From NCBI RefSeq assembly GCF_900104665.1, contig NZ_LT629969.1, positions 186,001 through 250,000 of the forward strand: DNA of 64,000 nucleotides. Reading direction: 5' to 3'. The notes under the pieces are model-generated. The model was not told the DNA's origin. It made no database searches and saw only the letters and a list, made by a program, of their open reading frames with translations. This DNA comes from Traorella massiliensis. Lineage in GTDB: Bacteria > Bacillota_I > Bacilli_A > Erysipelotrichales > Erysipelotrichaceae. Below, in pieces: positions 8,941 through 14,126 of this stretch (position 1 is the first letter of the stretch; every line of letters begins with the position of its first letter). The translations under genes were made by a program, and so were the position numbers.

Positions 8941-10209
8941 ATGAAAGCTGAACAGATAAAGAAAGGCTTTATTGACAAAAATTATGATTCATTATTATTG
9001 GATCTTTATGAAGATGAAGATCGTATAGAAAAACAAAATCAGCGCTATATAAAAATGCTTGAAAAATATATCGCTTATTATGGAAATGATGATGTAGAAA
9101 TTTATAATACACCTGGAAGAAGTGAAGTTTGTGGAAATCATACGGATCATCAGCATGGCTGTGTCGTGGCAGCCAGTGTTAATTTAGATGCGATTGCGGC
9201 AGTAAGTGATCAAAAAGATAAAGTTTCTATTATATCTGATCAATTCTTCTTAAAAGATATTTATATAGATGATCTTCATCTAAAAGAAGATGAAAAAGGA
9301 ACCTCCGAAGCTTTAGTGCGAGGAATTCTTTCTCGCTTTCAACAGCTAGGACATCAAATAGGCGGTTTTAAGGCATATATCACCAGTGATGTGATGATCG
9401 GAGCCGGTTTGTCCTCATCTGCCGTATTTGAAGTCATGATTGCAACGATCCTTTCAGGACTTTACAATGAACAAAAGATCGCACCCGAAGAACTTGCGAA
9501 AATTGCCCAGTATGCGGAAAATGTATATTTTGGTAAACCATGTGGACTAATGGATCAATGCGCCTGTGCTTTTGGAGGGCTTATTACGATTGATTTTAAA
9601 GATATCACACAACCGTTGATAGAAAACCTTCAGATTGATTTTTCTGCTTTTCATCACAGTTTATGTATCGTTGATACCAAAGGATCGCATAGTGATTTGA
9701 CCGATGAATATGCGGCGATTCCATCAGAAATGAAAAAAGTGGCTCATTTTTTTAGAAAAGAAGTATTACGTGAAGTTGATGAAGCTGCATTTTATGAACA
9801 TCTTTATACTATAAAAGAGCAGTGTGGAGATCGTCCGGTTTTACGAGCTATTCATTATTTTAATGAGAATAAAAGAGTCGTTCAGCTAGTAGAAGCATTG
9901 AAAGAAAACAGATTTGAAGATTTTAGACGAATCATTCAGCTTTCTGGTAATTCGAGCTTTAAATATTTACAGAATGTATATGCGGATGCTGCCCACCAAA
10001 GTATGAGCCTTGCACTCGCTCTTTCTGAAATGATCTTAAAAGATAAAGGCGTTTGTCGTATTCATGGCGGTGGATTTGCGGGAACGATTCAAACTTTTGT
10101 AGAAGATGCTCAGGCATCTATCTATAAAGAAGAAATAGAAAAAATTTTTGGTGAAGGCAGCTGTCATAGGTTAAAAATAAGAAAACAAGGCAGTATACGA
10201 ATGATTTAA
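8941..10209 (+). CDS. galK: Galactokinase-like GHMP kinase
   Basis: A 422-residue GHMP-superfamily kinase that would phosphorylate galactose at C1 with ATP. Motif 1 is TPGRSEVCGNHTDHQHG (about residues 57-73), the GalK signature with Cys-Gly-Asn in place of Ile-Gly-Glu. Motif 2 is GAGLSSSAVFE (ATP loop), and motif 3 is RIHGGGFAGT near the C-terminus. The N-terminus carries about 55 residues before motif 1, longer than in E. coli GalK. No galT or galE is adjacent, so the substrate could be another hexose. The next gene follows after 10 nt. Confidence 0.8.
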   Translation: MKAEQIKKGFIDKNYDSLLLDLYEDEDRIEKQNQRYIKMLEKYIAYYGNDDVEIYNTPGRSEVCGNHTDHQHGCVVAASVNLDAIAAVSDQKDKVSIISDQFFLKDIYIDDLHLKEDEKGTSEALVRGILSRFQQLGHQIGGFKAYITSDVMIGAGLSSSAVFEVMIATILSGLYNEQKIAPEELAKIAQYAENVYFGKPCGLMDQCACAFGGLITIDFKDITQPLIENLQIDFSAFHHSLCIVDTKGSHSDLTDEYAAIPSEMKKVAHFFRKEVLREVDEAAFYEHLYTIKEQCGDRPVLRAIHYFNENKRVVQLVEALKENRFEDFRRIIQLSGNSSFKYLQNVYADAAHQSMSLALALSEMILKDKGVCRIHGGGFAGTIQTFVEDAQASIYKEEIEKIFGEGSCHRLKIRKQGSIRMI

Positions 10210-10219
10210 AGGAGTTTGT

Positions 10220-10516
10220 ATGGATGAAGCATTCATTTATCAGATACTGGCTATTGTTTCTGAGATTCCCAAAGGCAAAGTAGCGAGTTATAAACAGATT
10301 GCCGAGTTATCAGGCCATGACAAAAATGCTCGATTAGTCGGGCGTATTCTTTCACATGCTTCCTATTATGGGAAATATCCATGTCATCGAGTGGTAAGTC
10401 AATCCGGACGACTTGTACCACATTGGGATGAACAAAAAGAACTATTACTAGAGGAAGGTATTGAATTTAAAAAGAATGATCATGTAGATATGAAAAAATA
10501 TCAGTGGAAAGTTTAA
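10220..10516 (+). CDS. MGMT-family DNA-alkyl transferase-like protein
   Basis: A 98-residue protein made only of the C-terminal DNA-binding domain of O6-alkylguanine alkyltransferases. The HTH arginine-finger region is GRILSHASY and the active-site motif is PCHRVV (about residues 54-59). Because the Cys is present (alkyltransferase-like ATL proteins usually have Trp there), direct dealkylation is possible, but the N-terminal domain of Ogt is absent. AAGGAG precedes the ATG, 10 nt after galK, so the two may be co-transcribed. Confidence 0.8.
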   Translation: MDEAFIYQILAIVSEIPKGKVASYKQIAELSGHDKNARLVGRILSHASYYGKYPCHRVVSQSGRLVPHWDEQKELLLEEGIEFKKNDHVDMKKYQWKV

Positions 10517-10535: not shown

Positions 10536-10572
10536 TGTAATCATTGATATTACAACATGGACATGATATAAT
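10536..10572 (+). promoter_or_regulatory. Promoter with Rrf2-type operator, site 1
   Basis: TTGATA (10544-10549), 17 bp, TATAAT (10567-10572). An inverted repeat TGTAAT-N7-ATTACA (10536-10554) covers the -35 hexamer. The same 6-7-6 repeat recurs twice after the nearby Rrf2 gene. Confidence 0.7.
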
Positions 10573-10594
10573 ACCAAAAAGAGTGGTGAAGAAC

Positions 10595-11167
10595 ATGAAG
10601 AAAAAACTTTTATTGATGCTTGTTTTATTAATGAGTGGATGTGTAAACCAGGAAGAGCCTGAGAGTGATCCGGCATACTGTAGTTTTGATAGTGATGAGT
10701 GTCTGGCAAACAGTGATGAATATGAAACATTTATAAATGAAAGTGATGTTTTTATTGAAATTACTATGCAGGAAGCGATTGATATGTTTGAGAATCAAGA
10801 GAGTTGTATTCTGTATTTTGGTTTTCCTGATTGTCCTTGGTGCATAGAAGCTTTACCAATCATGGAAGAGGCTGCCAAAGAGAATGATAAGAATATTTAC
10901 TATGTTCAGACAAGAGATGAAGAGCGTAATTTGATCTATACTGATGAAGAAAAAACAGCGATTCTTTCATATGTCGGACAATTTGAAGATACAGATGATG
11001 AAGGAAATGTTGCATTATTTGTACCGCTTGTTGTAGTTGTAGAAGATGGTGAAGCACTTAGCGGTCATGTAGGAACAATAGAGGGTCATGATGCTCATGA
11101 AAGACAAATGAATGAGGATGAACAAGACCAATTAAAAGGAATCTATGTAGAGATGTTTTCAAAATAA
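10595..11167 (+). CDS. Thioredoxin-fold lipoprotein
   Basis: A 190-residue exported protein. A lysine-rich signal peptide ends in the lipobox LMSGC, so it should be anchored to the outer face of the membrane. After an acidic Cys-containing linker comes a thioredoxin-like fold with the CPWC active site (FGFPDCPWCIEALP). A role in extracytoplasmic thiol-disulfide exchange is inferred. I chose the ATG at 10595 because it gives a proper signal peptide and follows GGTGAAG. The operator at its promoter and the Rrf2 gene 18 nt downstream suggest redox or nitrosative-stress control. Confidence 0.75.
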   Translation: MKKKLLLMLVLLMSGCVNQEEPESDPAYCSFDSDECLANSDEYETFINESDVFIEITMQEAIDMFENQESCILYFGFPDCPWCIEALPIMEEAAKENDKNIYYVQTRDEERNLIYTDEEKTAILSYVGQFEDTDDEGNVALFVPLVVVVEDGEALSGHVGTIEGHDAHERQMNEDEQDQLKGIYVEMFSK

Positions 11168-11185
11168 AAGAAAGGAGAGGTAGAT

Positions 11186-11626
11186 ATGCAGATCTCCAGC
11201 CGATTTACGATTGCGATACATATATTTTGTTGTATCGATCGATTTAAGGATGAGAAAATAACGAGTGAATTTCTGGCGGATAGCGTAAAAGTCAATCCAG
11301 TTATCATACGTAAAATATTAGGACAACTAAAAAAAGCAGGACTTGTAAAAGTACATAGAGGCAGTGGTGGTACTGATATTACAAGACCCTTAGAGGAAAT
11401 CACCTTTCTTGATGTTTATAAAGCAGTAGAATGTGTAGAAAGCAACGGATTATTTCATTTTCATGAAAATCCAAATCCTTCCTGTCCTGTAGGACGCAAT
11501 ATTCATTCGATATTGGATGATAAGTTATTACGTGTTCAGCAGGCAATGGAAAATGAATTAGCGTCGATTACCTTAGCTGACGTAAAAAAAGATTTAGATA
11601 AAATACTTGTGAATGACCAGTCATAG
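11186..11626 (+). CDS. Rrf2-family transcriptional regulator
   Basis: A 146-residue winged-helix regulator of the Rrf2 family. The HTH occupies about residues 20-60 and the wing has GSGGTDITRPLEEITFLDVY. A single conserved Cys lies in PNPSCPVGRNIHSIL, as in YwnA-like members, rather than the three-Cys cluster of the Fe-S sensors IscR and NsrR. It follows the thioredoxin-fold lipoprotein closely and is bracketed by three copies of one inverted repeat, so it probably represses itself, the lipoprotein and the downstream flavin/ferredoxin gene. Confidence 0.85.
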   Translation: MQISSRFTIAIHIFCCIDRFKDEKITSEFLADSVKVNPVIIRKILGQLKKAGLVKVHRGSGGTDITRPLEEITFLDVYKAVECVESNGLFHFHENPNPSCPVGRNIHSILDDKLLRVQQAMENELASITLADVKKDLDKILVNDQS

Positions 11627-11639
11627 AGCTGGTTTTTTT
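11616..11639 (+). terminator. Terminator after the Rrf2 gene
   Basis: ACCAG / CTGGT stem with an 8-nt loop followed by seven T. The left arm overlaps the last codons of the gene. Confidence 0.7.
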
Positions 11640-11649
11640 AAAATGAAGA

Positions 11650-11711
11650 TGTAACTATTGACATTACAACTAAGAAGTGATACTTTATTAGATGTAATTT
11701 AAAACATTACA
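11650..11711 (+). promoter_or_regulatory. Promoter with two Rrf2-type operators, sites 2 and 3
   Basis: TTGACA (11658-11663), 17 bp, TACTTT (11681-11686). TGTAAC-N7-ATTACA (11650-11668) overlaps the -35, and TGTAAT-N7-ATTACA (11693-11711) lies just downstream of the predicted start. Both match site 1 in arm sequence and spacer length. Confidence 0.7.
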
Positions 11712-11773: not shown

Positions 11774-12393
11774 ATGAAAACAAGTGAAATATTGAATATT
11801 CTACAGAAAGACATCCATACCCGTTATTATCGCAACCGTTGATGAAAATGATCATCCCATTACTTGTGCGATTGATTTAATGTTATATGAAGATGATACG
11901 CTTTATTTTTTAACGGCCCGTGGTAAAGCATTCTATCAAAGACTTATGTCCCATCCTTTTGTTTCCTTAACAGGAATTAAAGGAAATAATACACTTTCAT
12001 CCATAGCGATTTCTTTGCAAGGAAAAGTAAAAAATATTAAACATAAAAAACTTCAGGAAATTTTTGAAAAAAAATGACTATATGAAAAAGATATATCCAA
12101 ATGTTCAGGCAAGAGATATTCTTGAGGTATTTTGTTTTGAACAATTCAGTGGTGAATATTTTGATCTAAGCCAAACACCTATTGTACGCATTCCTTTTTC
12201 TTATCAGCAATCATTGCCCAAGGGTGGATATCAGGTACTAGAGGGATGTATCGGTTGTCATATATGTTATGAAGTATGTTCTCAGAAGTGTATTGATATC
12301 ACTCAAATACCTGTTAAGATTATTCAGAAACATTGTTTGCATTGTGCAAAATGTGCAGAAATCTGCCCTAAGCAAGTCATCGTAAAAATATAA
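11774..12393 (+). pseudogene. Flavin-binding oxidase/ferredoxin fusion with two frame breaks
   Basis: Reads as one protein of about 205 residues when two 1-nt errors are ignored. The N-terminal split-barrel domain resembles the pyridoxamine-phosphate-oxidase/NimA family (TVDENDHPITCAIDLMLYED). The C-terminal domain has two [4Fe-4S] ferredoxin motifs (CIGCHICYEVCSQKC and CLHCAKCAEICPK). Break 1 is at 11825-11829, where CATACCCG has one C too many and leads to a stop after 22 codons. Break 2 is the A8 tract at 12066-12073, where seven A would keep frame. GGGAGG precedes the ATG at 11774. It could be decayed, phase-variable or a sequencing artefact; the strong conservation of both domains suggests a recent event. 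Confidence 0.75.
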
Positions 12394-12402
12394 GGAGTCA
12401 AT

Positions 12403-13155
12403 ATGAATCAGAAAGAAAGAGAAATTTATTTAATTGATCGATTGCTGATGGAGCGTCATCAGCAAGCAGATAAAAATGCGTATAACTTTGATCTGTATCG
12501 AGCATTAGTGAATCTACGAGAACCTTTGCCAATGGATGATGAGTATTTGAAAATAGAAGATGAATATTTACAACAGATTTTAAAGGAAAAAGGAATCATA
12601 AAATTGGATGATGATGAACGGATCGTTATATGGCAAGGAGATATAACACGTTTAAAAGCGGATGCGATCGTCAATGCTGCTAATGAACAGATGCTAGGAT
12701 GCTTTGTTCCTGGACATCACTGCATTGATAATGCGATTCATACGTATGCAGGAATAAGATTGCGTTTAAAATGTAATGAGCTAATGAAAAAACAGGGATA
12801 TTTAGAACCAACAGGACAAGTAAAGGTTACACCTGCTTATAATCTTCCAAGTTGTTATGTATTTCATACAGTAGGACCGATCGTATCTTCTACGCTAACA
12901 AAAAGGCATGAGGAACTGTTGAAAATGTGTTATCAGAATTGTCTGAAAAAGGCAGATGAAATGAAGCTGGATTCCATTGCTTTTTGTTGTATATCAACAG
13001 GTGTTTTTCGTTTTCCACATGAAAAAGCTGCCATGATTGCTATTGATACGATCAAACGATATTTACCTGCTTCTCAGTTGAAACAAGTTATTTTTAATGT
13101 GTTTAAAGATGAAGATAAAGAAATATATGAAAAATTGAGTAAGGACGAAAAGTAG
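12403..13155 (+). CDS. Zinc-type macrodomain protein-ADP-ribose hydrolase
   Basis: A 250-residue protein with a helical N-terminal region and a macrodomain (from about residue 70, QGDITRLKADAIVNAANE). The segment GCFVPGHHCIDNAIHTYAG carries the Cys/His set that binds zinc in Zn-macrodomains, which in Staphylococcus and Streptococcus remove ADP-ribose placed by the partner SirTM on a lipoylated GcvH-like carrier. Here no SirTM, GcvH-L or lipoate ligase is adjacent. It sits 9 nt after the flavin/ferredoxin gene, so it may belong to the same stress operon. AAGGAG precedes the ATG. Confidence 0.85.
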   Translation: MNQKEREIYLIDRLLMERHQQADKNAYNFDLYRALVNLREPLPMDDEYLKIEDEYLQQILKEKGIIKLDDDERIVIWQGDITRLKADAIVNAANEQMLGCFVPGHHCIDNAIHTYAGIRLRLKCNELMKKQGYLEPTGQVKVTPAYNLPSCYVFHTVGPIVSSTLTKRHEELLKMCYQNCLKKADEMKLDSIAFCCISTGVFRFPHEKAAMIAIDTIKRYLPASQLKQVIFNVFKDEDKEIYEKLSKDEK

Positions 13156-13263: not shown

Positions 13264-14126
13264 TCAGGTTTCATTTTTAATCCAAGCATCAAGATGAATA
13301 TTGATGGCGGCAAAGATTGAAAAGAAAGCTGCTTTGGAGTCTTCACGAATTCTCATCTGATGAAGATGATAGTCATTGAGAATTCTATTATTGATTCTCT
13401 CAGTACAAGTTCTATTTTTGTATAGTTCTTTCCATTTATCTGTTTTGTAAGGAACAGGGCCAAAAAGACGCATATCAAGCGAATCGTTAATGTAAACAGT
13501 TCTACCATATGGAGAAGGAGAACATGTATCTGCATGTGGACAAGAATCAATCAATCCCATTTTTAGAGGACAACGGAATTTTCTTCTTTGCCTTTGATAG
13601 TCGTAGCCACAGTGATACATTTCAACACCACAATCACAAATTGGTTTGCCGTTTTCACTAATAGAATCAAAGTGTTTATAAATATTTTTACCCAATTTAC
13701 GTTGATTGAAATCAATGATTGGGATAATATTATGGTGACGCAGAAATTGGTAAACGGCAGAAGAATCGCTTGCGGAATCGAAACACATGAATTTTGGAGA
13801 GAGTTCAGGGTTAATGTCAAGGAAACGAGCGGTAGAGGAAATGGAAGACAGAGCATCATGACGAGAAGCTTTCTCTAAATCGATAAAGACGGGAAGGTCA
13901 GTATGGATTAGAGGGTTATGATAAGAAATGTTATAGAGAGTATAACCGAAGTAATACATTCCAAGATCACTGTCCCAACCAAAATCTGCGTTTTTAGCGC
14001 TATAACGATGAGTGTTTAAAATATTGTCATCTTTAATGATTTGATGACCAAAAGGAGAAGCATGAATATGAAAAGCAGAACCATCACCAGAAAAGACAAG
14101 ATTGTAGGAATATGGTAATATTTTAA
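13264..14126 (-). pseudogene. 5'-truncated DDE transposase (IS1182-like)
   Basis: C-terminal part of a DDE transposase. The open frame has its first ATG at 13959 but continues upstream without a start through FSGDGSAFHIHASPFG to about 14126, where proC begins. Diagnostic pieces are a Cys/His-rich insertion (CDCGVEMYHCGYDYQRQRRKFRCP) and the C-terminal TERINNRILNDY motif with the catalytic Glu. The N-terminal DNA-binding half and the outer inverted repeat are missing, so this is a remnant. The junction lies immediately before the proC ribosome-binding site. Confidence 0.75.

Follow-up and report, generated by a model that had tools for sequence, protein, structure and literature searches.

A SifR/YwnA-type Rrf2 regulator predicted to control the remnant of a SirTM/zinc-macrodomain operon in Traorella massiliensis

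Rrf2 regulators of the SifR/YwnA group are defined by a single cysteine in an HxxPNPxC motif. SifR recognises the operator TGTAA-N9-TTACA, is released from DNA by quinones through that single cysteine, and has YwnB among its targets, while HypR shares the operator core and carries a conserved cysteine pair, C33/C99 (PMC9218516). Macrodomains go unmentioned in the available part of that paper. SirTM/zinc-macrodomain (Zn-macro) systems, which combine an ADP-ribosylation writer and eraser, are induced by oxidative stress and have OYE and LLM proteins as named partners (PMC4518038, PMC11490716). Beyond GcvH-L their targets were called elusive in 2024, as was the physiological role of the signalling (PMC11490716). 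In the available text of these sources the word 'ferredoxin' is absent from both PMC4518038 and PMC11490716, and 'transcriptional regulator' is absent from PMC4518038. One paper that covers sirtuin, macrodomain and Rrf2 treats HypR and the sirTM operon separately in the part available. Among open-licence PMC papers we found no link of Rrf2 regulators to SirTM or zinc-macrodomains, which is weak evidence. The sensor type is known, and its link to reversible ADP-ribosylation appears to be new.

The locus described here lies in a 64,000-nucleotide window of the genome of Traorella massiliensis, a gut bacterium. An earlier note on this DNA had placed the motif TGTAAY-N7-ATTACA at 10536, 11650 and 11693, on both sides of an Rrf2 gene (11186-11626, + strand). 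All three prove to be exact matches (10536-10554, 11650-11668 and 11693-11711; operators O1, O2 and O3, with no strand assigned), and the Rrf2 assignment is borne out by Pfam PF02082 (5.1e-33, 114.5 bits, cut-off 30). In the whole genome of 2,606,093 bases, TGTAAY-N7-RTTACA occurs three times, always around this gene, and the reversed pattern occurs once. The exact 19-bp motif is thus confined to the Rrf2 locus. The looser TGTAA-N9-TTACA is found six times, with five matches for a backward control, and its three extra sites each fall within a stop-free frame (294, 460 and 548 codons).

O1 holds the -35 element TTGATA (10544-10549) of a sigma-70-type promoter, TTGATA-N17-TATAAT (10544-10572, + strand), which precedes the lipoprotein and Rrf2 genes. 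This promoter matches the consensus at 11 of 12 positions and is the best of the region in a consensus scan, and the same promoter form lies 5' of the Rrf2 genes of relatives. O2, at the target promoter, holds the -35 element TTGACA (11658-11663), followed 17 bp later by a -10 element TACTTT (11681-11686, + strand); the -10 is weak, and this second promoter is unlisted by the consensus scan. In both promoters the -35 occupies operator positions 9-14 (from 10544 and 11658) and the spacer is 17 bp, so the shared geometry claimed in the earlier note stands. Of the operators, which it placed at or next to promoters, the first two contain the -35; O3 has no -35 and lies at the transcription start expected from the second promoter, 43 bp downstream of O2. 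The view that the lipoprotein and the regulator itself are targets gains support from the autoregulation geometry, in which O1 covers TTGATA. An intrinsic-terminator-like hairpin (11615-11634, + strand) marks the boundary between the regulator transcript and the target operon, and such hairpins are about equally common in shuffles (two found in the region, 1.3 expected).

Comparison with relatives carries more weight. Rrf2 relatives occur in 32 of 60 related genomes (E <= 0.001), with 17 loci in named genomes. Exact TGTAA-N9-TTACA sites lie in the flanks of 28 of 43 Rrf2 loci (>140 bits); this is no clean frequency, as the 43 include the window, two near-identical pairs (L042/L043; L052/L053) and three operator-assisted loci (L129, L131, L156), but the contrast with controls is clean. 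Over the same set, the mean for 29 permuted half-sites was 0.07 loci, and any spacer from 3 to 15 except 9 was matched at 0-2 loci. Two of the sequences, L036 and L043, are MAG contigs labelled Muribaculaceae and Paracaedibacteraceae, whose Rrf2 and operators resemble those of Erysipelotrichales-type relatives and Bacillus velezensis (L042); both contigs are probably misbinned.

The same operator emerges when loci are found by SirTM alone. A SirTM profile matched 88 of 392 phylum genomes at E <= 0.001, many of them weakly (E above 1e-12) and resembling ordinary Sir2, and 32 loci were kept after exclusion of the weak matches, 26 in-frame-TGA places in family f16 and a broken pair (G040:C112). 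An operator lies within 3.5 kb upstream of SirTM in 14 of these 32 loci. The other 18 have none within that distance, which suggests that the operator is one control mode among several. Within 5 kb, a macrodomain is found at 25 of the 32 loci, a SifR-type Rrf2 at 11 and a flavo-ferredoxin at 11. In a larger set of 42 loci, formed from the 32 and ten others that were mostly fetched through Rrf2 (a duplicate, L051, and two code-4 loci being dropped), 23 have the operator upstream; for four of these the available upstream sequence is shorter than 3.5 kb, counted over all 42. Permuted half-sites gave a mean of 0.31 loci and spacers other than 9 gave 0-1. Two fetched in-frame-TGA loci of family f16 (L150, L151) contain no operator. 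Judged from these sequence comparisons, operator conservation in relatives is much stronger evidence for a regulatory site than counts within the window genome.

The arrangement of O2 and O3 recurs as a two-operator promoter. The paired pattern is present in 14 of 395 class genomes, two of which (G296, G328) have no -35 within the operator and seem to be chance occurrences, and the reversed control is present in one. Fetched regions held 24 pairs with TTGAC/T in the first operator, or 22 after removal of two reverse readings. In all 22, which were limited to pairs with TTGA[C/T] in the first site, the -35 starts at operator position 9, the best spacer of 16-18 is 17 and the geometry is that of the window's TACTTT promoter. 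The centre-to-centre distance is 42 in 16 pairs, with 36, 40, 43 (the window), 46, 48 and 49 once each. About 42 bp is four helical turns, so two dimers would share one face of the DNA. SirTM is among the first five downstream genes in 13 of the 22.

Several such promoters face other genes. The congener carries a second, more distant Rrf2 with a two-operator promoter of its own (L079, 6575-6633; variant motif TGTAAA...TTTACA, 40 bp apart). This promoter faces a divergent gene for a 4Fe-4S protein and makes up a paralogous regulon of altered specificity. Two-operator promoters at L128, L154 and L155 stand before a small PNPOx protein, an ECF-transporter substrate component and a flavo-ferredoxin, with SirTM and macro downstream at L128. 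A further two-operator promoter of the congener (L157, 5567-5670) drives a SnoaL-like gene, which makes the congener's regulon larger than that of the window.

Outside the class, a SirTM-like match was found in 32 plasmid records, five of which were examined. On a Niallia taxi plasmid, Rrf2 is accompanied by operators, and YwnB-SirTM-macro has an operator immediately in front of it. In Treponema saccharophilum the order is YwnB-PNPOx-Rrf2-SirTM-macro, with half-operators around a TTGACA promoter, and in Enterococcus casseliflavus a divergent Rrf2 accompanies SDR-macro-Sir2-PNPOx and a one-mismatch operator. Roseburia has 4Fe-4S-macro-Sir2 with neither Rrf2 nor operator. Subdoligranulum has flavo-ferredoxin-Sir2-macro and no exact operator; some 3 kb off lies a distantly related Rrf2 (64.8 bits). 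Within about 4 kb of SirTM, an exact operator is lacking from four of the five records (E. casseliflavus, Roseburia, Subdoligranulum and Treponema).

The genes behind O2 and O3 are, on gene content, the remnant of a SirTM/Zn-macro writer/eraser operon. The first (11774-12393, + strand) encodes a fusion of a PNPOx-like flavin domain with a 2[4Fe-4S] ferredoxin; its frame is broken in two places, leaving three different frames in the window where the congener has one intact frame. Its differences from the congener by codon position (0.17, 0.07 and 0.43) are dominated by third positions, as in intact neighbours, and since they still look coding the breaks would be recent or artefacts: they could reflect true decay or assembly error. 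Programmed frameshifting seems unlikely, as the congener and the other full-length aligned relatives have the gene in one frame. The second gene (12403-13155, + strand) is intact and encodes a Zn-macro protein-ADP-ribose hydrolase, the putative eraser, matched by NCBIfam (324.6 bits, cut-off 272) and by the Streptococcus pyogenes structure 8rsi (3.4e-70). The alignment to 8rsi retains the C-x4-H-x-C zinc-loop residues, which we take to be zinc ligands.

The congener (L034 and L051, which are one contig) has a sirtuin gene as the third of its operon. The protein scores just under the Pfam SIR2 cut-off (23.1 bits against 24), but S. pyogenes SirTM (5a3a) is matched at 1.7e-87 by a profile built from 14 proteins of this kind. 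SirTM shares an operon with Zn-macro in many other relatives too. Because this third gene is a SirTM relative, the ancestral unit is flavo-ferredoxin - Zn-macro - SirTM, with variable order and extra genes; in relatives' operons the extra genes include SnoaL-like, YwnB-like, cupin, MFS and ECF transporter genes. YwnB adjoins a SifR-type Rrf2 or sits in the SirTM operon in several relatives, and a YwnB-like quinone reductase lies under the operator in L057, L153 and Niallia (L166), though not in the window. Neither the congener SirTM, a query that does match relatives, nor the SirTM profile finds a SirTM in the window genome, and no SirTM remnant was detected in the window (E-values above 1). 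Window and congener align to about 13136 and resume at about 14109, with about 0.97 kb between these points in the window and about 3.9 kb in the congener. In place of SirTM and about 3 kb of further congener sequence, the window has an IS1182-family transposase remnant, C-terminal part only (13264-13959, - strand; NCBIfam NF033551, 4.9e-13, profile 280-479 of 488). A defence-system reading was discarded, as PADLOC on four proteins returned one weak unrelated match (Cas6, 15.4 bits). The flavin/ferredoxin-macrodomain target unit of the earlier note is present in both its genes, with the first frame broken twice; that it derives from a SirTM/Zn-macro operon had gone unnoticed there. The regulon is likewise compact, as had been said, because in this genome the operon has eroded; relatives have SnoaL-like, YwnB-like and other targets as well.

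Upstream, the lipoprotein (10595-11167, + strand) carries a thioredoxin-like CPWC motif, matches NCBIfam PedC/BrcD below cut-off (2.2e-10) and has weak PDB matches to thioredoxin-like chains. The window and its congener are alone in having this gene directly 5' of Rrf2. Another congener genome (G004) has a 62% lipoprotein homologue and no Rrf2 match, and no operator, even with one mismatch, lies within 1.5 kb of that homologue. Just 5' of the lipoprotein promoter is a gene for a short alkyltransferase-like protein (10220-10516, + strand; PF01035), kept in the congener. Before it lies a GHMP kinase gene (8941-10209, + strand) resembling galactokinase, at 147 bits far below the galactokinase cut-offs of 385.

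What the regulator senses is suggested by its cysteines. The nearest PDB structures are 1ylf (1.4e-39) and YwnA, 1xd7 (1.6e-31). Cys100, in H93-ENPNPS-C100, is invariant in 22 of 22 aligned relatives (chosen from about 40 at hand), and C15, C16 and C83 are unconserved among them. With an Rrf2 winged-helix fold, a single HxxPNPxC cysteine and the TGTAA-N9-TTACA operator, the protein is predicted to be a SifR/YwnA-type monothiol repressor, a name that rests on cysteine signature and operator and not on a curated model. An iron-sulfur sensor like NsrR or IscR, responding to NO, oxygen or cluster status, would agree with the Rrf2 family in general and with the Pfam family name, iron-dependent regulator. 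However, the 22 relatives offer no second or third conserved cysteine for a cluster, where NsrR and IscR use three, the NsrR and IscR NCBIfam scores (21.4 and 20.4 bits) are far under cut-off, and the operator is of the SifR/HypR type (PMC9218516). The cysteine pattern led us to set the NO/Fe-S reading aside as very improbable. As the regulator does not belong to the NsrR-type iron-sulfur proteins, we favour thiol/electrophile sensing over nitric oxide; of the thiol or nitrosative stress proposed earlier, the thiol part agrees with the single invariant cysteine, and a nitrosative response through an NsrR-like cluster does not. We also think a HypR-like dithiol switch, in which oxidants such as HOCl would form an intersubunit disulfide, unlikely, if less so. 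Of the NCBIfam models HypR scores best (61.7 bits), and HypR has the operator core in common (PMC9218516), but the score is a third of the cut-off of 180, and cysteines 15, 16 and 83 are unconserved here, against the conserved C33/C99 pair of HypR (PMC9218516).

Two further alternatives concern the DNA and the operon. The operators might be chance or unrelated palindromes, and counting with mismatches in the window alone is indeed uninformative: with up to two mismatches there are 31 matches against 21.6 expected by shuffling, and 31 was reached in 7 of 100 shuffles. As the motif is not special at that level, we place weight on exact matches, which are clustered, spacer-specific, promoter-locked and conserved; conservation already contradicts the chance reading, and we give it almost no credence. 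More plausible, though still doubtful in our judgement, is that the operators are genuine but Rrf2 chiefly controls the lipoprotein operon to which it belongs, the macrodomain operon being a decaying passenger with no present function. The missing SirTM and the broken flavin/ferredoxin frame speak for this. Against it, O2 and O3 are undamaged, perfect sites and the macrodomain frame is whole. Both this gene and the broken one differ from their congener counterparts chiefly at third codon positions, and the frame breaks could be recent or assembly errors.

We consider it likely that the regulator is an electrophile sensor of the SifR type that uses one site to repress its own unit and two sites to repress an ADP-ribosylation operon. 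Operators, promoter geometry, conservation, gene content, cysteine pattern and losses lead us to a model in which repression, its tightening by two sites, release by electrophiles and the function of the module are inferred. With Cys100 reduced, an Rrf2 homodimer would bind TGTAA-N9-TTACA. One dimer at O1, over the -35, would give autoregulation of lipoprotein and regulator. A pair of dimers, one on O2 covering the -35 and one on O3 covering the start site, would sit on the same face some four turns apart, clamp the promoter and shut the flavin/ferredoxin - zinc-macrodomain - (SirTM) operon more tightly. Modification of Cys100 by a quinone or other thiol-reactive compound would then make the dimers leave, and the operon would be made. 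In relatives, a soft-electrophile signal would thereby produce flavo-ferredoxin, SirTM writer and Zn-macro eraser as a reversible ADP-ribosylation module; in the window genome, with SirTM lost and flavin/ferredoxin broken, regulator, lipoprotein and eraser would remain. More tentatively, and with real doubt, we speculate that lone SirTM/Zn-macro pairs are an electrophile-stress module that monothiol Rrf2 sensors switch through a clamp promoter with two operators, with the PNPOx-ferredoxin replacing lipoylated GcvH-L as the protein that SirTM modifies and the macrodomain frees.

With S. pneumoniae SifR and B. subtilis YwnA the locus has in common the HxxPNPxC cysteine, the TGTAA-N9-TTACA operator and, in relatives, a YwnB-like NAD(P)H-binding oxidoreductase neighbour. 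Its targets differ, being flavo-ferredoxin, Zn-macro and (in relatives) SirTM, as does its two-operator promoter, and the stretches examined contain neither the catechol dioxygenase nor the Piu iron uptake of SifR-type targets. S. aureus HypR is alike in Rrf2 family and operator core, but has two conserved cysteines where this regulator has one. As in the SirTM/Zn-macro systems of S. aureus and S. pyogenes (the extended operon) and in lone pairs, a 5a3a-related SirTM adjoins an 8rsi-related Zn-macro in association with redox enzymes. Here, by contrast, the partner is a PNPOx-ferredoxin fusion, control would lie with an Rrf2 sensor, and the window is without SirTM; the extended-operon genes GcvH-L and LplA/LplA2 were absent from the subset of neighbours scanned. 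The conserved sensor-operator pair offers a candidate inducing signal for this ADP-ribosylation, thiol-reactive electrophiles such as quinones, and the PNPOx-ferredoxin is a first candidate substrate or partner protein of SirTM/Zn-macro. The known SifR regulon would widen accordingly, from iron and catechol handling to reversible protein ADP-ribosylation.
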